DNA of 55,716 bases, taken from assembly GCA_030729385.1 (NCBI GenBank), contig JANQXM010000063.1:1-55716 (forward strand), read 5' to 3'. The notes beneath the pieces were generated by a model. That model had not been told where the DNA came from, ran no database searches, and saw only the letters and a program-made list of their open reading frames with translations. This document shows, piece after piece, positions 6,612-55,554 of this stretch. This DNA is from Opitutales bacterium (GTDB lineage: Bacteria > Verrucomicrobiota > Verrucomicrobiia > Opitutales > Coraliomargaritaceae). How positions within the stretch are numbered: the stretch's first letter is position 1; every line of letters starts with the position of its first letter. The translations under genes and the position numbers were made by a program.

Positions 6612-7521
6612 GGCGTGAGCGTGGATTCATCCACATTTGGATGAGGTCGACGATGAGGTTAAACAGGATGATGAGTGTGGCGTAGAAGAGGACGGTTCCC
6701 ATGACCATGGTGTAGTCTCGGTTCAACGCGGCATTTACAAAGAAGGGACCGAGACCGGGGATGAAGAAGATGGTTTCTACGACAAAGGAGCCGCTGATCA
6801 AGCCGGCGGCAGCGGGTCCTAGATAGGCAACCACTGGGTTGAGCGCGGTGCGTAGTGCGTGGCGGATGATGACTGTTTTCTCTGCCAAACCTTTGGCACG
6901 GGCGGTGCGTATATAATCGTCTTGCAGCACGTCCAACATCCCACTGCGTGCCAGTCGGGCGATCGACGCGGCATAGAGTAAGCCGAGCGTGATGGCTGGC
7001 AGCACCCGGTCGGTGGCGAAGGTCCAGCCCAACGGGTTGAACCAGTCTAGATGCAGGCTGAAGAACAACAGTAGGATGGGCCCGACCACGAAGGAGGGCA
7101 GGCAGATGCCGATCGTGGCAATACCCATAAGACCCGTTTCGGTGGGGGTGTTGTGCTTGATCGCGGCGATAGTGCCGATGGGGATGCCGACAGAGAGCGC
7201 AATGAGTAGCCCCCAGAGCCCGAGTTCGAGCGATACGGGAAATGCTTGAATGATGATTTCCTGCACGTCCCAGCCCGGATATTTATAAGAGGGACCTAAG
7301 TCGCCTTGGAGGATGTTGCCGAGGAACTCGAAATACTGCTCGTGGAGCGGAAGGTCTAATCCGTAGTGAGCCTCGATCTTTTCTTTGATTTCAGGAGGCA
7401 GCGGTTTTTCATCATCGAAGGGCCCGCCTGGAGCGAGTCGCAAGAGCAGAAACGTCGCCGTGGCCACGACCCACAATGTGGGAATGGCTTGTAGCAGGCG
7501 TCTGATGATTAAATTAAACAT
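6604..7521 (-). CDS. oppB: Peptide ABC transporter permease (OppB/DppB type)
   Basis: A 305-residue permease that pairs with OppC to form the membrane channel. It opens with NLIIRRLLQAIPTLWVVATA, the usual OppB first helix, followed by the long periplasmic region containing LHEQYFEFLGNILQGDLGPS. The EAA-type coupling loop is DYIRTARAKGLAEKTVIIRH, and the C-terminal YTMVMGTVLFYATLIILFN helix is standard. About six transmembrane segments. Length and order match the family. It overlaps oppC by 8 bases and starts 63 bases after oppA. Confidence 0.93.
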   Translation of the reverse strand: MFNLIIRRLLQAIPTLWVVATATFLLLRLAPGGPFDDEKPLPPEIKEKIEAHYGLDLPLHEQYFEFLGNILQGDLGPSYKYPGWDVQEIIIQAFPVSLELGLWGLLIALSVGIPIGTIAAIKHNTPTETGLMGIATIGICLPSFVVGPILLLFFSLHLDWFNPLGWTFATDRVLPAITLGLLYAASIARLARSGMLDVLQDDYIRTARAKGLAEKTVIIRHALRTALNPVVAYLGPAAAGLISGSFVVETIFFIPGLGPFFVNAALNRDYTMVMGTVLFYATLIILFNLIVDLIQMWMNPRSRHD

Positions 7522-7600: not shown

Positions 7601-9207
7601 AACTTGATCGCTTGGTAGGGATGGTTGTCGAGGATACTGGGATACCAGCCTTGCACGGCATCGTCGATCAGGCGACTGGTGACGTAAAAGTAGATGGGGA
7701 TCACCGGCATTTCATCGAGTAGAATGGCTTCGGCTTTTTGGAAAATCGCTTTGCGAGCTTCGGGGTCGAGGGTGACCGCGGCTTGCTTGATCAGTGCGTC
7801 GTATTCGGGGCTGCTCCACTCGGTGTGGTTGTTGCCGTTGTTGGTTTCGCCGAGGCTGAGAAAAGTGTTGGGGTCGTCGTAGTCGCCAAACCAAGAAGCG
7901 CGGAGGATGTCGAACTCGCCGGCTTCGCGCGTGGAGAGGTAGGCTTTCCACTCTTGGTTGTGTAGCTCGATGTTGATGCCGAGTTCTTTTTTCCACATTT
8001 GCTGTATCGCGACGGCGATCGTGCGGTGCGACTCGCTGGTGTTGTAGAGCAGTTCGAAAGCGGGGAAGCCTTTGCCGTCAGGGAAACCGGCTTCGGCGAG
8101 GAGTTGGCGGGCGAGATCAGGATCGTAGGGGAAGCGGGCTTCGGCGTTATAGCCACCGGCGTTGGGCGGTGTGAAATGGTAGGCGGGTTGTTGTCCGGCT
8201 TTGAGGACGTGTTTGGTCAACTCTTCCCGATTGATCGTGTAGGCGAGCGCTTTGCGCACGCGGGGGTCGGCGAGCGGACCGCGTGAAGTGTTGAGCATGT
8301 AGTAGTAAACCCCCAGCGATGTGGCGAAGTTGATGGTTTCGGGGCGGTGCTCGCGATACCAATCGATCCGATGGATCGGCACGGTGGCGGTGATGTGCAA
8401 ATGCCCGGAGCGAAAGGCGCGCTCTTCGGTATCGATCTCAATCGGGAGGAAATGTATGCCGTTTAAATTGACGGATTCGATATCGCGGAAGTGTGGGTTT
8501 TTGACTGCGTAAACTTCTGTATTGAGCCGCCACTTTTTTAGCAGATATGGACCATTGCCTACATAGTTGCCCGCTTTGGTCCATTTAGAGATGCGTTCCG
8601 TCATGCTGCCATGTTTCAGGATCGTGGGCGGGTGAACAGGGAACCATGTATTATGAGCGAGCAAGCTGAGGAAATAGGGGGTGGCTTGCTCCAGTTCGAT
8701 TTGCAGGGTGTGGTCGTCGATCGCTGTAGCGCCAACTTTCGAGAAGTCGGTGAGTTTGCCGGTATGAAACGCTTCTGCGTCGCGCATCGGATACAGCATG
8801 TAGGCATACGGGGCACCTAACAGTGGTGTGAGGATGCGCTCGAATGAAAACAGAAAATCCTCCGGAGTGACGCGGTCACCATTTGACCAACATGCATTTG
8901 GATCGAAATGAAAGGTGTAGAGTAGACCGTCTTCGGAGATATCCCAAGATTTGGCGACGCCCGGTAGCACGCGCATGGTCTCTGCGTCGAGCGTGGTGAG
9001 CCCTTCGAGGAAGGCCATCATGATCGAATACTCAGTTAAGCCAGTTGAAAGGTGTGGGTCGAGTGTCGCTGGTTCGGCGCCGATGCCGAGATAGAGTTCT
9101 TGGGTGGTATTTCCGAGCTCAACGTTGGTCTTCTTCTTTGTGCAGCCGACCGTCATCCAAAGCAAGCAGCTCAGGCAGAGGGTGGTAATGAAATAACGGC
9201 GATGCAT
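7585..9207 (-). CDS. oppA: Peptide ABC transporter substrate-binding lipoprotein (OppA/DppA, SBP family 5)
   Basis: A 540-residue extracytoplasmic solute-binding protein. The N-terminus is a lipoprotein signal with lipobox MTVGC (Cys22). The mature part begins LGIGAEPATLDPHLSTG, the classic SBP_bac_5 opening, and contains TFHFDPNACWSNGDRVTPEDF, KNPHFRD and the C-terminal EKAEAILLDEMPVIPIYF block. All match OppA-like proteins in order and length. It should bind peptides in the periplasm and deliver them to OppBC. It is the first gene of the oppABC group; its final residues are encoded inside an AT-rich repeat. Several long frames on the other strand in this gene are shadows. Confidence 0.93.
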   Translation of the reverse strand: MHRRYFITTLCLSCLLWMTVGCTKKKTNVELGNTTQELYLGIGAEPATLDPHLSTGLTEYSIMMAFLEGLTTLDAETMRVLPGVAKSWDISEDGLLYTFHFDPNACWSNGDRVTPEDFLFSFERILTPLLGAPYAYMLYPMRDAEAFHTGKLTDFSKVGATAIDDHTLQIELEQATPYFLSLLAHNTWFPVHPPTILKHGSMTERISKWTKAGNYVGNGPYLLKKWRLNTEVYAVKNPHFRDIESVNLNGIHFLPIEIDTEERAFRSGHLHITATVPIHRIDWYREHRPETINFATSLGVYYYMLNTSRGPLADPRVRKALAYTINREELTKHVLKAGQQPAYHFTPPNAGGYNAEARFPYDPDLARQLLAEAGFPDGKGFPAFELLYNTSESHRTIAVAIQQMWKKELGINIELHNQEWKAYLSTREAGEFDILRASWFGDYDDPNTFLSLGETNNGNNHTEWSSPEYDALIKQAAVTLDPEARKAIFQKAEAILLDEMPVIPIYFYVTSRLIDDAVQGWYPSILDNHPYQAIKLIDNE

Positions 9208-9517
9208 GTTGCACTATTCGGTAGTTGGCGAACCGCAGACGCGCAAGGGGAATTCAAAGGAATTGTGAGTTGCAAGCTGGCTCTGTAATTTGAAACCACG
9301 AAGGGCACGAAGATCACGAAGGCTATTCAGGCGTATTAATTATTACGCAGAGTTGTTTTATCGGATTCGTGACTATCTGTGTGGCTTCGTGGGAAATTTA
9401 CGTCGTATCAGCTTTGTGGCTCTGCGTCTTGAGTGGCGAAGGAGCGGGCGTGAGCTATCAGAGATTGGTTCTAGGGCTTGCTTCATCTTCGTGTCCTCCG
9501 TGCCCTTCGTGGTTTAA
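9208..9517. repeat. Gene-free gap with CCACGAAGGGCAC-type inverted repeat
   Basis: The 310-base gap holds a 16-base perfect inverted repeat, AAACCACGAAGGGCAC at 9293-9308 and its complement at 9500-9515. Between the arms are further degenerate pieces (ACGAAGATCACGAAGG, GTGGCTTCGTGGG, TTGTGGCTCTGCGTC). A 75-codon open frame across it (9290-9517) is rich in Arg because of the repeat and has no family features, so I do not call it a gene. Repeats of this CACGAAG type are widespread between genes in Verrucomicrobia and Lentisphaerae. Confidence 0.7.
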
Positions 9518-10408
9518 TTAGACCTTCAAGAGTCGTTCGATGTTCCCGTGGAGGATTGCTTCCAGTTCCTTCTCGCTCAATCCCGCCTCGTCGCGGATGG
9601 AATCTAGGAAGTGCTGCATCTGCGCTTGTTTTTGCTGGCGTGGATAGACGCGGAGTGGGAAGTCCGAGCCATACAGCACTTTGTCGCTGCCAACGGCATC
9701 TATTACCGAACGAAAAACCGTGGGCTCATAGAGTAGTGGGCTCGCGGCAGTATCGTAGTAAACGTTCTTCAGTGATTTGCGTAGTCGAGGATTGGCTTCA
9801 AAGAACGGGAGGCCGCCGCCCCAGTGGGCTAGGATGATCTTTAAGTCGGGGTGGGCTTCGGCTTTGCGGACGAAGTCTTTGAGTGGGGTTTCGATGCTGC
9901 CCGGATGATCGTGACCTGCCGCCTCGGTGGCGTGGAGATTGACGAGCCAGTTGTTTTTGACGCACCACTCGGCGAGCGCGAACCAAGCGGGACTGCTGGA
10001 GGCGAACTTCTGTGCGCCGTTGTGTAGCTCGCCCACACCACGGAGACCGAGGGCTTTGGCGGCTTCGAGTTGGTCGACGACATTCTCGTTGGGATAGATC
10101 GAAGCAAAGCCGATAAAGCGATCCGGTGCATGGCTGATCCAGTCGGCGATGACTTGATTGTGCCAGCGGCAGGTGGATTCGTGTTCCCAATACCAACCGA
10201 GGAGAACGGCTTTCGCGACGCCATTGGCATTCATCTCAGTGATCATGGATTCGGGGGTGCTCCAGTCTTGGATCGAAATTTTATCTTCCGGAGCCACGAG
10301 ATCGGCCCAATGCAATTCATTGCGCTGCTCCGCCCAAGCACGCGGGTGGGCCACTACCTCGGGAGGGTAGCAGTGCGTGTGGCAGTCAATGATTCCTGAA
10401 TAGGTCAT
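9518..10408 (-). CDS. Amidohydrolase family 2 (metal-dependent TIM-barrel hydrolase)
   Basis: A 296-residue amidohydrolase-2 protein. The metal-binding residues are visible in order: IDCHTHCYP (strand 1 HxH), LVNLHATEAAGHDHPG, IILAHWGGGLPFF and LYGSDFPLR (catalytic Asp). These proteins hydrolyse or decarboxylate small ring or acyl substrates; members include ACMSD and uncharacterised hydrolases, and the substrate here cannot be predicted. No signal peptide, so cytoplasmic. It stands alone, flanked by repeat-filled gaps on both sides. Confidence 0.88.
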   Translation of the reverse strand: MTYSGIIDCHTHCYPPEVVAHPRAWAEQRNELHWADLVAPEDKISIQDWSTPESMITEMNANGVAKAVLLGWYWEHESTCRWHNQVIADWISHAPDRFIGFASIYPNENVVDQLEAAKALGLRGVGELHNGAQKFASSSPAWFALAEWCVKNNWLVNLHATEAAGHDHPGSIETPLKDFVRKAEAHPDLKIILAHWGGGLPFFEANPRLRKSLKNVYYDTAASPLLYEPTVFRSVIDAVGSDKVLYGSDFPLRVYPRQQKQAQMQHFLDSIRDEAGLSEKELEAILHGNIERLLKV

Positions 10409-11444: not shown

Positions 11445-11571
11445 ATTTGGTGTGTGGAGACGTGGCCGACTGTGCGATGATTGATTTACAACCGCTGCGC
11501 TAGAGTGCCCTGCGGGCGAGATTAGGGAGGTAAAGATTGCCATGAAATCTCTTGGGGGACAGAAAGGTGTC

Positions 11572-11952
11572 ATGGATGATTACACTGAATTAACCGGAAC
11601 CATAATCGGTGCGGCAATGGAAGTGCACGACTACTGGGGTCCAGGACTTATCGAAAGTATTTATGAGAAAAGCTTACAACATGAGCTTGCGCTACGAAAC
11701 GTTGAGGTAAGGCGTCAGGTCAAGCTTCAGCTCAAATACAAAGATTTAGAATTAGATGACGACTATGCTCTGGACCTAATTGTGGATGGTAAAGTCATCG
11801 TTGAACTAAAAGTCGTGAAAGAACTCGCCCCCATACATGAGGCGCAACTAATGACCTATATGAAGCTAACAGGCTGCAAAGTTGGATTGTTGATTAATTT
11901 CAATGTAATCCGCCTTAAAGAGGGCATCCGGCGACTATCCCTTCCTGAATAA
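11572..11952 (+). CDS. GxxExxY family protein (PD-(D/E)XK nuclease fold)
   Basis: 126 residues. The name-giving motif appears as GPGLIESIYEKSL. YALDLIVDGKVIVELKVVKEL carries the Asp and the ExK pair of the PD-(D/E)XK fold, to which the family has been assigned; its biological role is not established. The C-terminus IEAQLMTYMKL-type helix (here HEAQLMTYMKLTG) and GLLINFNV strand are typical. An upstream ATG at 11542 would add ten residues. I prefer 11572, because AAAGG sits four bases before it and family members begin close to the LTG. Isolated gene downstream of a terminator. Confidence 0.85.
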   Translation: MDDYTELTGTIIGAAMEVHDYWGPGLIESIYEKSLQHELALRNVEVRRQVKLQLKYKDLELDDDYALDLIVDGKVIVELKVVKELAPIHEAQLMTYMKLTGCKVGLLINFNVIRLKEGIRRLSLPE

Positions 11953-12456: not shown

Positions 12457-12565
12457 GAATCACTTATAATGAGATAAGTCTATCTGTCCATTCTTGTGAA
12501 TGTTTTGACCCACGAATGCCGCGTAAGAGCAAATGTCATGATATCTCAAAATTACATAATAACTT

Positions 12566-12572
12566 GTTCGTC
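12566..12572 (+). other. Putative left cassette boundary (R' box GTTCGTC)
   Basis: GTTCGTC here is the exact reverse complement of GACGAAC at 14209-14215, the R'' box of the first attC-like site. In integron cassettes the R'' box at the cassette end must match the R' bases at its own start, because both belong to one attC in the circular form. No attC fold is visible to the left of this box, so this edge may be an attI-like or secondary site. The crossover would be between G12566 and T12567. Confidence 0.55.
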
Positions 12573-12653
12573 CAAAAGCTGCGCTCTCAGCTGTCCTATG
12601 CCCTGTTGAAATATGCACCGCAACTTTCTCTTAGGCGTTGGGTTTATCCATTG

Positions 12654-14120
12654 ATGAAATTCCATCTCTTCACCTTCACCGCTACCCTCTGTGTTACCTC
12701 CTATATTTGCATCGGAGAATTACATGGGCAGTCCAGGAATTCGGAAAAGCAGGGTGGAAACGATTGGTCGGCGGAGGAGTATAGCGGTAGCCGGACTGAA
12801 AAGAATTTGAGAGCTGCTATGACCTCGAAGGGATTCGCTTGGTTGAGTGGTTCCCCAGCGGATAACGAGAAGCTGTCTATTGGCAAAAATGCTCAGTTCT
12901 TCGGCTTCGTCGCCCTTCGTTATCAGAGTGGTCGTGCTGCAAACCGAGGAGCATTGGGGCGGGGATTCTTTGCGATTTCTGATGAGACGCAAAGGGAGAT
13001 TCTGCCCAAAGCTGTCCTCGCTGAGGACGCGCCGCTCAAGAAATGGTGGGAGGTTCGTAAGGAGATATTACGCCTTTTCGAGAACCATCTCTACAACAGC
13101 GAGGAGATTGATGAAAAGTTGGCCTCGGAACTTGGAGTTGAGTGGTCCAAGCTGGGAGCGGCCATTGCGATTCATGAGGCCCGTGGATTTGCTGCTTTGG
13201 AAGACGCACTAAGTGACGAGCAACGGGCACAGCTAAAGGTCTGGCGCGAGAATCCTGAGAAATCACACAAGCTCGGTCAGAAGGGTCAGATTAGGTCGGA
13301 TGATCTGAACCGAGATCAGTTGAAGCAACTGGAGGACCTCTATGCGAAGGCATTTTCCTGGATCACGGGAACTTCGGAAGACAACGAAATCATTCCCTTG
13401 GGGCAGCCCGCCCAGTTTTTCGGCTTTGTCTCCATTCGGCACAAGAGTGGACATGCCGCCAACCGGGGTAAGATTTCCAAATCCTTTCTGGAGATCCTCG
13501 ATCGCGATCAATCGGATATCATTGACCATGCCATTGATGAACAGATGCCGGTAGTGAAGCGCTTTCTTGAGCAGCGTCACCGGTTTCTTGAGGAACTCGC
13601 CTTGCTTCGCACCGAGCCGAACGTATTTGACGAGGATCGTGCAATGGAGCTAGCTGCCAAAATGGGGGAGCTGGAGGTTAAGGCAGGATGGATTGAAGCG
13701 AAAGCCTATCGAAAGATTCGAGAAAGCATGACTGCCGAACAGACGTCCCAAATGATGAAGCTTCGAGGCGATTATGTTTTGGATGAAGCACAGGTTGCTT
13801 TGTTGTCGCCTGAGGAGCGTGGAGCGCAACTTGCTATTCTCTGTGCCGGTTGCCACGGCACACCAGGAAATTATCGCGCGGAGATGATAGGGCCGTCGCT
13901 GGAGGGTGTTTTCGACCGCCCGATCGCCTCACAAGTTGGCTTCCAGTATTCGGACGCCCTGCGGAAGCTCAATGACGGGAAACCTTGGACAGTGGAGAAA
14001 TTGGATGGGTATCTCGCTTCACCGAAAACCTATGCGCAGGGGACCAAGATGGAGTTTCAGGGCTTGCTCAAACCAGCGGACCGAAAAGACCTCATCAACT
14101 ACCTTAAACAGACGCGGTAA
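12654..14120 (+). CDS. Exported c-type cytochrome with a duplicated N-terminal helical domain
   Basis: 488 residues. A signal peptide (MKFHLFTFTATLCVTSYICI) supports ATG 12654 over an upstream frame opening at 12516. Two homologous units follow, about 48-200 and 230-395: each has FAWLSGS/FSWITGT, then DNE, AQFFGFV, a SG(R/H)AANRG block and a long helical part ending with L/MTxEQ-like helices (LSDEQRAQLKVWREN, MTAEQTSQMMKLR) reminiscent of Spy/CpxP. The C-terminal 95 residues are a class I cytochrome c domain: CAGCH, YSDALRKL and the KMEFQG stretch, whose Met may be the distal ligand. Probably periplasmic electron carrier or sensor. I know no named family with this layout. It lies inside a putative integron cassette. 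Confidence 0.75.
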   Translation: MKFHLFTFTATLCVTSYICIGELHGQSRNSEKQGGNDWSAEEYSGSRTEKNLRAAMTSKGFAWLSGSPADNEKLSIGKNAQFFGFVALRYQSGRAANRGALGRGFFAISDETQREILPKAVLAEDAPLKKWWEVRKEILRLFENHLYNSEEIDEKLASELGVEWSKLGAAIAIHEARGFAALEDALSDEQRAQLKVWRENPEKSHKLGQKGQIRSDDLNRDQLKQLEDLYAKAFSWITGTSEDNEIIPLGQPAQFFGFVSIRHKSGHAANRGKISKSFLEILDRDQSDIIDHAIDEQMPVVKRFLEQRHRFLEELALLRTEPNVFDEDRAMELAAKMGELEVKAGWIEAKAYRKIRESMTAEQTSQMMKLRGDYVLDEAQVALLSPEERGAQLAILCAGCHGTPGNYRAEMIGPSLEGVFDRPIASQVGFQYSDALRKLNDGKPWTVEKLDGYLASPKTYAQGTKMEFQGLLKPADRKDLINYLKQTR

Positions 14121-14208
14121 AACGCAATACCTAGTTTGCTCCTAGTTTGCTCCTTGTAATCCAAGATATTGCCACAAGCCCCAAGGCTAAACCGAAACAA
14201 ACAAAGAT

Positions 14209-14267
14209 GACGAACAAGTCGTGGCACATCAACGCGCTACGCGCGTGAGTGCACTCAATCGTTATGT
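14209..14267 (+). other. attC-like recombination site 1
   Basis: Read in order: R'' GACGAAC (14209-14215), 5-base spacer AAGTC, L'' GTGGCAC (14221-14227), a 6-base hairpin ACGCGC-TAC-GCGCGT (14232-14246), L' GTGCAC (14249-14254), 6-base spacer TCAATC, R' GTTATGT (14261-14267). L'' pairs with L' if one G is bulged out, which is the extrahelical base that marks the bottom strand in true attC sites. Spacers of 5 and 6 match the classical aadA attC layout. The AAC and GTT cores are present. Confidence 0.8.
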
Positions 14268-14280
14268 GTCTAAATAAAAT

Positions 14281-14691
14281 ATGATCTCAGTATCTAGTTA
14301 TTGGAAAGATGACCTGCTCAAAATCGCAGGCAGACTTGAGCGTAGATTAATTCAATGCCGGTGGGGAGAGAAGAATATATACACGCTAGAAACGGAAATA
14401 TTTTTAGGATTCTATGCCATCAGGAAGCTAGTCGAATCCAACAAAATATCTGACTCACTGAAAACAAAAAGCATAGACATCAAAGAGTTTCCATATCAGG
14501 GACATCCTGAATCAATTATTACTCACTTTAAAGAAAGTGACTATGATTTTAGTAGAGCTAAGGCCTCTAGAATCACAGTTACCCAACTATGCAATCAGTT
14601 CATCCATAGTCACCATTTCCTACCTTTTTTACCCAATGGTAAAAACTTAATTGGGTTCTTTTTTTGCTCTGATCACAAACGAACGTCTTGA
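14281..14691 (+). CDS. Hypothetical protein in an AT-rich putative integron cassette
   Basis: 136 residues, no family recognised. The start ATG lies 19 bases after the crossover point at G14261/T14262, the usual position of a cassette reading frame, and there is no clear ribosome-binding site. Base composition is visibly more AT-rich than the neighbours. The sequence is mixed alpha/beta with SVSSYWKDDLLKIAGRLERRL at the N-terminus and an aromatic, His-containing segment QFIHSHHFLPFLPNGKNLIG. No signal peptide or membrane helix. The whole unit would be the 607-base cassette 14262-14868. Confidence 0.65.
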   Translation: MISVSSYWKDDLLKIAGRLERRLIQCRWGEKNIYTLETEIFLGFYAIRKLVESNKISDSLKTKSIDIKEFPYQGHPESIITHFKESDYDFSRAKASRITVTQLCNQFIHSHHFLPFLPNGKNLIGFFFCSDHKRTS

Positions 14692-14813
14692 ATATATTTA
14701 ATTACCCTATTTGACATTGCCGGGATCTATCGAGCTGTAGGAAGTAATTATCCCATGAGTATGAGTTCGAGCCGGTTACCAAACGGAAAAACACTAAAAA
14801 CGATCGAATGAAT

Positions 14814-14874
14814 ACATAACCAGTCGATCGTGACAATGTCGCTAACGCGCCATCGTCACATCTCCACGTTCGCA
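14814..14874 (+). other. attC-like recombination site 2
   Basis: R'' ACATAAC (14814-14820), 5-base spacer CAGTC, L'' GATCGTGAC (14826-14834), variable hairpin (14836-14853, pairs ATG/CAT and CGC/GCG), L' GTCACATC (14855-14862), spacer to R' GTTCGCA (14868-14874). L'' and L' pair over eight bases with a single bulged C. R'' is the exact 7-base complement of R' GTTATGT at 14261, as required if 14262-14868 is one cassette. Confidence 0.8.
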
Positions 14875-14880
14875 GGAAAA

Positions 14881-15375
14881 ATGAAAGCCATTGCTATAGT
14901 TCCGCTCCTTTTATTTTTCACGCTGATAGCCAATGCAGATATTCGGGAGGTCGGCTACAAAGTAGGACCACAACTTTTCAGGGCTGGCGACAGCATCGAA
15001 ATTAAAGAAGTGAAGGCTTCATCATCGAGTTTCGAGATTGGTGAGACTGTTACAGTCAGAGGAATCTACACTCTAAAATCTTATCCAGATGCGAAAATAA
15101 GCATTTTTGTCACACAGACCGTAGGCGATGGAAAGAGTGAGGTTTTGCCCGGACAGCAGCTCAGAATAAAAGAAGGGACTGGAGAGTTTGAACTGAGCAT
15201 TGAGATTCGGCATGAAGGATATCTTCACGTCACCTTTTACCCCGCAGATGGAGGCAGTGGATTCGGCGGAGTCTACTTTGGGAAATCTAAGAAGATGGAA
15301 GAAATCAAAGACTGGACACTCGACTGGTATTTGGGCGAGCCGCTACCCGAAGGCAGGTCGGACTCAAACCTGTGA
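14881..15375 (+). CDS. Small secreted hypothetical protein, possible third cassette
   Basis: 164 residues. ATG 14881 is preceded at good distance by AGGAAAA and begins a signal peptide (MKAIAIVPLLLFFTLIANA), so the longer frame from 14830, which runs through attC-like site 2, is rejected. The mature part looks all-beta, with FEIGETVTVRGIYTL, AKISIFVTQT and EFELSIEIRHEGYLHVTFYP, suggesting an Ig-like or C2-like sandwich. No family recognised. The start is only 12 bases after the crossover point of site 2. I found no third attC after its stop, so it may be the last, decayed cassette or simply flanking sequence. Confidence 0.7.
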   Translation: MKAIAIVPLLLFFTLIANADIREVGYKVGPQLFRAGDSIEIKEVKASSSSFEIGETVTVRGIYTLKSYPDAKISIFVTQTVGDGKSEVLPGQQLRIKEGTGEFELSIEIRHEGYLHVTFYPADGGSGFGGVYFGKSKKMEEIKDWTLDWYLGEPLPEGRSDSNL

Positions 15376-15483
15376 CCCAGTCGCGGGAGTATCAGCTGGC
15401 AAAATCCTAGCTGCCAACCTCGCCAGCCTGCCTTTACGTTTTGGGCACTTGCGAAATGTGGATTCCTCGCTTTCTCTCTCGGT

Positions 15484-53887: not shown

Positions 53888-54336
53888 GGGGCAGGCGTCT
53901 CTCGGGGTAGGGATCGTTATACCTTTTCACCATGAGCCTGTGTCGAATGGATCGATCCAAGAGGCGCAAAATCCAGTTTTGGTAGGGATCGTTATCCCTA
54001 ACGATCCGAGATGCTTTGAGAAGCTTGAAGTGATCAGTCGGCCTAGCAACGTGTTCACCGATGACGTTGGGTCCTCACCGCTTATGGACGCTCATGTCAC
54101 GCTAATTAATAATCCCAAATGCGCGCTTACTGCCCACGCCAGACATTCGTCCAGAAACCAATCTACGCGCCTTTAAAGCAAGCGAGGAATAATAGCGAAA
54201 AATGCGCTATCATCCCAAATCGAATAATAGCGCAATAGGGATGACGAGATTTCATTATCTATAATCCGTTTGACCTGAAGATGTGGGGAATGATATCGTA
54301 AAATGCACTAATAACTTGTTGGAAAAGTAAATATAA
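53888..54336. repeat. Gene-free gap with REP-like copies
   Basis: 449 bases. A half REP at 53907-53923 (GTAG then GGATCGTTATACC) and a full one at 53982-54007 (GTAG, stem GGATCGTTA, loop TCCC, TAACGATCC) lie in the same orientation. The full copy is the partner of the 1823-1848 copy. Further on, TAGCG...CGCTA pieces around 54192-54228 form small palindromes. A 119-codon frame from 53817 covers the first half but overlaps the previous gene and has no features. Confidence 0.65.
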
Positions 54337-55407
54337 ATGAAAATCAACATGAAACACATGGTCTTAGTGTTCGTTTCAGCACTCGTCGCTCTATCGACTG
54401 TGACTAGTGCATCTGAAGACTTAGACCCCAAGAACCATAAGGAGATTTACGTCGAAGCTTTTAAATTCTGGAAACAAAAAGTGAAGGTGGATCCGACACC
54501 AGCCAGTGATGAGCAGGTGATGATTACAGTTTCGGATACACCAACTCTGCAGACTCCCGAGTGGAAGCGACGAGATCCCAGTGATATCATTCGTGTGGGG
54601 GATACCTATTATGTGTGGTATGCGAAAATCCATAAGAGCGAGCTAGGCTTCCCCGGGGGGTGGAGTGCGAATACTTGGTATGCGACAAGTAAAGATGGTG
54701 TCGATTGGCAAGAGCAAGGAATCGCAATAGATAAGGGTGCCCCCGGAGCTTGGGATGAAGGCGGAGCCTATACGCCGAATATTTTAGCCTATAAGGGTAA
54801 ATATTACCTCGCTTACACTGGGGTGAAAGCACCTTTCAATATTCCTCATAATTTAGCTTCGATCGGTATGGCTGTTTCGGATACACCAGACGGCCCTTGG
54901 ACAAAATTGGGGGACAAGCCGATGATCTCGCCGACTGATTCTTACGATGCTCCGGATGGATTCCTTTGCGATGATACCGTATTTGTCGTTAGAGAGGATA
55001 AGATTTGGCTTTATTACAAAGGCTACCCGAAGACAATCGATGCGGAGGGTAAAGACATTCGTGTAAGGCAGAGGACTTTTCTCTTGGTTGCGGTCGCGGA
55101 TCAACCCGAGGGCCCCTATGTGAAGCACGGGGAAATCTTGCATGAAGGGCATGAGGCGGTGCTTTGGACAAATCCCGATGGCAGTGTCGGCTCCTTTTGC
55201 ACCTCACACGGGCCATCACTCTACTATGAGTCTACTGACGGCATCAACTTTAAGAGTATGAATCCGATTACCTCGCAAAAAGCACTTGGAATATATCGGG
55301 CTGATTTTGAAGAAGGCAATCGAGGGGCACGGCCCACCTGGGGAATTTCTGCAGAAAAGAACAAAGCGGGTCTCGGCTTGCGTCGTATTGAGATCAAGTG
55401 GCCATAA
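54337..55407 (+). CDS. Secreted glycoside hydrolase of the five-bladed beta-propeller type (GH117/GH43-like)
   Basis: 356 residues. Signal peptide KHMVLVFVSALVALSTVTSAS. The mature part starts with EIYVEAFKFWKQKVK, then RRDPSDIIRVGDTYYVWYAK, WYATSKDGVDWQEQG, YTPNILAYKGKYYLAYTGVK and DTPDGPWTK: blade-type repeats each with a Y-Y-(V/L)-(W/A)-Y strand. The RRDPS block and the following KxGxYYVWYxR-like strand resemble GH117, whose characterised members release 3,6-anhydro-L-galactose from agar oligosaccharides; GH43 is the alternative. Candidate catalytic Asp/Glu: DPSDI, DEGG and CDDTV. Activity on algal polysaccharide is inference. Confidence 0.75.
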   Translation: MKINMKHMVLVFVSALVALSTVTSASEDLDPKNHKEIYVEAFKFWKQKVKVDPTPASDEQVMITVSDTPTLQTPEWKRRDPSDIIRVGDTYYVWYAKIHKSELGFPGGWSANTWYATSKDGVDWQEQGIAIDKGAPGAWDEGGAYTPNILAYKGKYYLAYTGVKAPFNIPHNLASIGMAVSDTPDGPWTKLGDKPMISPTDSYDAPDGFLCDDTVFVVREDKIWLYYKGYPKTIDAEGKDIRVRQRTFLLVAVADQPEGPYVKHGEILHEGHEAVLWTNPDGSVGSFCTSHGPSLYYESTDGINFKSMNPITSQKALGIYRADFEEGNRGARPTWGISAEKNKAGLGLRRIEIKWP

Positions 55408-55554
55408 TGAATCTATTTTAACTTTAGCGCATCTAGCCAAGAGAATAGAAGCCCAACCAGTCGAGGATCACAACGGCTAAAGCCGCGCGATCTCTCCACG
55501 ATCCCTTTCGCGTTTAACTCTGTCGAATGGAACGGACAGAGAACTGATTCTGAC

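Follow-up and report, generated by a model that had tools for sequence, protein, structure and literature searches.

The attI1 site of class 1 integrons consists of two direct repeats and a simple site, with several repeated integrase-binding boxes ending at G|TT. Integrons typically carry one attI, located close to the integrase gene; outside class 1, attI sites are poorly described and IntegronFinder does not detect them (PMC9024848), so that systems with many scattered attI copies would be missed. For CALIN, the cassette clusters that have no integrase gene nearby, the origins proposed are off-target insertion, loss of intI and rearrangement, and the Verrucomicrobiota are known integron carriers (PMC8618304). 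A search of the open-access literature found no paper on dispersed or multiple attI sites. The DNA analysed here comes from an Opitutales bacterium (assembly GCA_030729385.1, contig JANQXM010000063.1) and is referred to as the window, a stretch of 55,716 nucleotides. Judging from its sequence, the region 12538–15438 (+ strand) is very probably an integron array of three cassettes whose attI-type site has no adjoining integrase gene. A preliminary description of this DNA had proposed an array of integron cassettes that lacks an integrase, a proposal supported by the attC scores, the exact R boxes, the empty sites in congeners, the lack of intI and the presence of a homologous cytochrome cassette elsewhere in a congener.

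Two attC sites and three cassettes

Rfam gave no attC-like match at the two candidate sites, and a covariance model (R1) was therefore built from array-confirmed sites. Integron integrases were searched for in 388 Verrucomicrobiota genomes, the DNA around them was examined and attC arrays were collected by pattern and by chaining of R boxes; the 29 array-confirmed attC sites used for training came from other Verrucomicrobiota genomes, with none from the window. When the whole window was searched on both strands without filters, the two best R1 matches were attC2 (14814–14874, + strand; 26.6 bits, E 8e-5) and attC1 (14209–14267, + strand; 25.4 bits, E 1.6e-4), at the positions where the preliminary description had placed two attC sites. 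The third-best match reached only 11.5 bits, and both scores are thus above background. A first pass with a regular-expression scanner had returned 13 + strand candidates in 55 kb and is weak by itself. Both sites have the attC layout R″-spacer-L″…L′-spacer-R′ with AAC/GTT and a bulge in L″, and their L arms pair with a single base bulged, as had been claimed (GTgGCAC/GTGCAC and GATcGTGA/TCACATC). Folding gave a divided answer: the bottom strand of attC2, at −12.8 kcal/mol (z −3.3), is far more stable than the top strand at −7.4 kcal/mol, in the direction expected of an attC site, whereas attC1 has no strand bias (−12.8 for the bottom and −13.4 kcal/mol for the top). The sequence of attC2 resembles attC sites at attI loci of two other genomes (G389, contig C35, and G173).

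The R boxes follow the same logic. The reverse complement of R″ of attC1 (GACGAAC, 14209) recurs exactly as GTTCGTC at 12566, and that of R″ of attC2 (ACATAAC, 14814) as GTTATGT at 14261. Real arrays have 59 exact pairs among 74 consecutive R″/R′ pairs, compared with 17 among 87 same-site controls; the two exact matches of the window, already pointed out in the preliminary description, are therefore what a true array is expected to show. GTTCGTC occurs seven times on the + strand and its match is weak by itself; it becomes strong because its G coincides with the crossover point of an attI core.

The boundaries originally drawn for the first two cassettes stand, but the array contains three cassettes rather than two and the insert runs to ~15438. 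Cassette 1 (12567–14261, + strand) extends from the R′-derived TTCGTC to the G of attC1 and carries a gene for a 488-aa cytochrome c protein (12654–14120, + strand; Pfam PF00034, E 4e-7); the gene is given with this start and not with the listed one at 12516, which falls inside attI. The protein has two similar N-terminal repeats (..WLSGSPADNEKLSIGKNAQFFGFVALRYQSGRAANRG.. / ..WITGTSEDNEIIPLGQPAQFFGFVSIRHKSGHAANRG..) that are covered by no Pfam family. Cassette 2 (14262–14868, + strand), with the exact ACATAAC/GTTATGT pair, contains a 136-aa ORF (14281–14691) for which the Pfam search found no match. Cassette 3 (14869–15438, + strand) contains a 164-aa ORF (14881–15375) whose product has an N terminus resembling a signal peptide and 52% aa identity (153 aa) to that of a G173 gene with a weak orphan attI ~1.9 kb before it. 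A decayed site, attC3 (15371–15444, + strand; R″ TGTGACC, spacer CAGTC, R′ GTTTTGG), was not detected by the R1 search of the window and takes its boundary from the alignment with locus L120; its R″ agrees with the expected TGCGAAC in five of seven bases, and the CAGTC spacer is kept.

Acquisition of the insert

Two other genomes of the genus (G388 and G389, with UvrB 91–92% identical) were compared, and empty sites were found in both. FKBP, DCC1 and uvrB are contiguous in these congeners, and the cytochrome gene and the ORFs starting at 14281 and 14881 are missing between DCC1 and uvrB. Since both congeners have DCC1 and uvrB without the insert, the comparison indicates that the insert was acquired and, since the 14881 ORF is absent as well, that it includes the third gene. 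In five more distant relatives (L126, L127 and L129–L131) DCC1 also adjoins uvrB and the three insert genes are missing; the gene order of the window without cassette boundaries was not seen across distant Verrucomicrobia. On the left flank, DNA homologous to G389 extends up to ~12542; on the right, host homology restarts at ~15449, just past the decayed attC3. Between FKBP and DCC1 the window has a gene of the PDDEXK_3 nuclease family (11542–11952) that is missing from the corresponding regions of the two congeners.

Among the eleven relatives searched, the cytochrome cassette gene is present in G389 and absent from the other ten, and a search of the GTDB contig collection with the cytochrome returned no relative. 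The G389 gene (contig C22), whose product is 62–63% identical in amino acids, occupies a different locus with different flanking genes. Its cassette lies at an attI, starts with GTTCGTC, has a sulfatase as second gene and has an attC (24.1 bits) with the exact R″ GACGAAC and a similar loop. On the comparison of these two sequences, the cytochrome cassette would be one that moves between loci. The two-gene cassette of G389 (L149, 1812–4862; cytochrome and sulfatase) is ~3 kb long, which is unusually large.

An attI-type core and its dispersed relatives

The preliminary description overlooked an attI core to the left of the first crossover. This core, ATGATATCTCAAAATTACATAATAACTTG|TT (12538–12568, + strand), has its crossover after G12566, where the first cassette begins, and no intI lies beside it. 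Its match to an attI model (R2; 12472–12569, 20.1 bits, E 0.0016) is weak, and attI is represented by no more than its last ~30 bp; because the bases up to ~12542 are host DNA, the window attI would be a truncated or short copy. An 11-mer, AATAACTTGTT, ends at the crossover at 12566, at 54318 and at four more places of the genome, and most of these loci have up to ~130 bp upstream in common and diverge exactly after the G. Fuller copies, found at five other loci of this genome and at about nine orphan places of the closed G173 chromosome, comprise an accessory dyad, a conserved GTTTGAC, a core dyad and the crossover, in this order and over ~130 bp. The arms of the accessory dyad covary (TGCGCTAT/ATAGCGCA, TGCACTAT/ATAGTGCA, TTACATAT/ATATGTAA, TGACATAT/ATATGTCA and TGTCATAT/ATATGACA), with a covariation score of 0.392 compared with 0.127 ± 0.040 in shuffles, none of 500 of which scored as high. 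The core dyad terminates in TAATAACTTG|TT, and at some sites the junction is G|AT in place of G|TT (window 55499, G389:C35, G388:C52 and G000:C67, the last in the genome of the window). GTTTGAC is conserved in most copies and may be the −35 box of a putative cassette promoter.

The attI identity of this family can be read from its position. A hidden Markov model made from five copies, all of them orphans without an adjoining intI, matched 440–480 bp from the start of a divergent intI in G173 (E 1.6e-6), in the congener G388 (0.0075) and in G399 (0.012). In all three genomes the first cassette ORF comes after the AATAACTTG| core. A copy between intI and the first cassette in three genomes is in the position of attI, and the core family of 12538–12568 is also found there beside intI. 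Model R2, trained on a set that included the window copy 54185–54320 and excluded most G173 copies and G000:C67, found six copies in the genome of the window. The closed G173 chromosome yielded ten, of which one lies next to intI and four are weak, two of the weak ones having degenerate cores. Copies from outside the training set scored E 3e-23 (G000:C67) and, in G173, 2e-19 (314k), 4e-16 (115k), 9e-15 (578k), 2e-13 (1478k) and 2e-13 (532k). The R2 search of fifteen other family genomes yielded no copies. On these matches, attI copies are dispersed over the chromosomes of the genus and of one relative.

Most copies are alike from near −130 up to precisely the crossover, and usually one or a few cassettes come after them. 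The attC matches at attI loci all lie downstream and on the strand of the attI (15 of 15), and at several loci the cassette start is matched by a downstream R″ (GTTCGGC/GCCGAAC, GTTCGCC/GGCGAAC, GTTGGAC/GTCCAAC and GTTATGT/ACATAAC). Next to trpA, where G173 has an orphan attI, ten relatives have no homologs of the attI or its cassettes in a region of unconserved gene order. A second attI subtype (ACACTAATAAAACTG|WT), taken for comparison, has 1–3 exact copies per genome, and four of six are at or near an IntI match. The sites of this subtype (G389:C22:323595, G048:C9 and C79, G048:C82, G039:C134 and G399:C34) are mostly at or near such matches and are not dispersed in the tested genomes.

The window contains a second unit of this kind. 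A full-length attI-like element (54185–54320, + strand) has its crossover after G54318, scores 94.7 bits with R2, in whose training set it was included, and is 75% identical to the non-training 314k copy of G173. Behind it lie a cassette gene for a glycoside hydrolase of family 43 (54337–55407, + strand; PF04616, E 4e-16) and an altered attC (55451–55506, + strand; R1 11.5 bits, E 0.43), in which R″ GCCCAAC, L″ GAGgATC and L′ GATCTC are followed by G|ATCCC and not by G|TT; the match of this R″ to GTTGGAA, the start of the cassette, is partial. The contig end (55620–55716) recurs at an apparent insertion-sequence end of contig C13 (L081, ~7140–7200), and the assembly probably broke at this repeat. 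Another decaying array is present on that contig (L081, G000:C13:12000–30000), where 7727–9783 has a strong attC of 46.9 bits after a ~273-aa ORF, with an exact GTTCGGC/GCCGAAC pair. Downstream come toxin-antitoxin genes of ParD/ParE-like type as well as remnants of decayed attC sites (GCCTAATAAGTCG… and GCATAATAAGTCGG…), and the attI model found no match in this array. The attC search of the genome scored 150 of 762 candidates, so that further attC sites may be missed.

The missing integrase

No integron integrase was found in the whole genome, a draft of 73 contigs and 99.6% completeness in which an intI in an assembly gap is conceivable. Matches to the integron integrase family (TIGR02249) are at the XerC/D level of control genomes, with none over the cut-off, and both congeners have integrases over it. 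The locus thus has at least two attC sites and no neighbouring integron integrase, as in CALIN, and the genome lacks the intI gene of a complete integron. Where integrases are linked to this type of attI, they carry an N-terminal extension, and their ORFs are ~455–480 aa long. In the phylum, an integron-integrase match exceeds the curated cut-off in 108 of the 388 genomes; many of the matches are in ORFs of 400–580 aa, compared with 315 positions in the family model, and some have no confirmed attC array nearby, for which reasons these counts are not taken as working integrons.

Origin of the array

In all likelihood, as far as sequence can tell, the array consists of integron cassettes on a dispersed, orphan attI platform. 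An IntI formerly present and now gone from the genome would have recombined single-stranded attC hairpins with the double-stranded attI core, the cut being placed at AATAACTTG|TT. The incoming cassettes would be circular, and the cytochrome c cassette, which adjoins attI, would be the newest. In relatives still having intI, one attI copy lies beside it; because the attI copies are dispersed and one is beside intI, a single integrase would load many platforms in trans, and cassettes could be exchanged among platforms. A broader model, with prospects just short of even, can be put forward tentatively: a distributed integron in which one integrase serves many scattered attI platforms, the ~130-bp attI multiplies as a mobile unit and many loci, rather than a single array, take up cassettes and express them.

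An unlikely but serious alternative is that the locus is the relic of a complete integron after deletion of intI, and that the other orphan attI sites are likewise relics of separate integrons. Relatives do contain several intI genes and fragments, and a relic would explain the 115k copy of G173, of which 279 bp are kept, extending into the 5′ end of intI. Most copies, however, stop near −130, and a search for intI remnants within 2.4 kb of seven orphan attI copies found nothing significant. Five of the G173 orphans are strong attI copies with no scored IntI next to them, and at the window locus host DNA reaches to within ~30 bp of the crossover, which leaves no room for intI.

It is improbable that the locus is an ordinary CALIN, with cassettes inserted off-target at a chance attG-type host site and attI not involved. 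Such insertion at attG has been published (Loot et al. 2024, as cited in PMC12444791), and at the window locus the homology with G389 up to ~12542 and the CATAACTTG|TGG that G389 carries nearby would agree with it. A chance host site would not be expected to have a 29-bp core identical, in 29 of 29 positions, at an unrelated locus of G389, nor to belong to a family found beside intI in three genomes; moreover, the attI core family was present at every cassette insertion tested. Still less probable is that the element is no attI but a small repeat (MITE or promoter repeat) of which integrases make fortuitous use: its bounded length of ~130 bp and its covarying dyads would suit such a repeat, but in three genomes it occupies the place next to intI and the first cassette begins at its G|, and this, together with the constant orientation of the attC sites downstream, speaks for attI. 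That terminator hairpins and chance R-box matches simulate an integron is next to inconceivable, the seven + strand copies of GTTCGTC notwithstanding, given that the two sites are the top matches of an independent model and that a cassette with matching R boxes exists elsewhere, in G389.

Comparison with known integron systems

Integron organisation with dispersed attI copies appears to be a novel variant. If a genome has many attI copies, the layout would be a different one: cassettes would be captured at several loci, every one of them with neighbours and probably a promoter of its own, and this would provide one concrete route to integrase-less cassette clusters. The ~17 natural attI sequences with compensatory changes are a resource for studies of IntI–attI recognition. 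Like CALIN (PMC9024848; PMC8618304), the window array combines two or more attC sites with co-oriented cassettes and has no intI in its vicinity; in contrast to CALIN, it has an attI-type core at its left end, and the origins stated for CALIN do not include dispersed attI copies. With the sedentary chromosomal integron it shares the attI crossover G|TT, the attC cassettes and an attI family that stands beside intI in relatives, but intI is absent here and there are many attI copies per genome instead of typically one near the integrase (PMC9024848). Insertion at attG, to the extent that it is outlined in PMC12444791 (Loot et al. 2024), likewise places cassettes at many chromosomal positions away from intI, and some G|AT junctions are common to both; the insertion points described here differ from the minimal site of that outline in having long attI-family sequence in common. 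The repeated, putatively integrase-binding boxes that lead up to the G|TT crossover recall attI1, from which the present element differs by combining, over ~130 bp, a core dyad with an accessory dyad whose arms covary.
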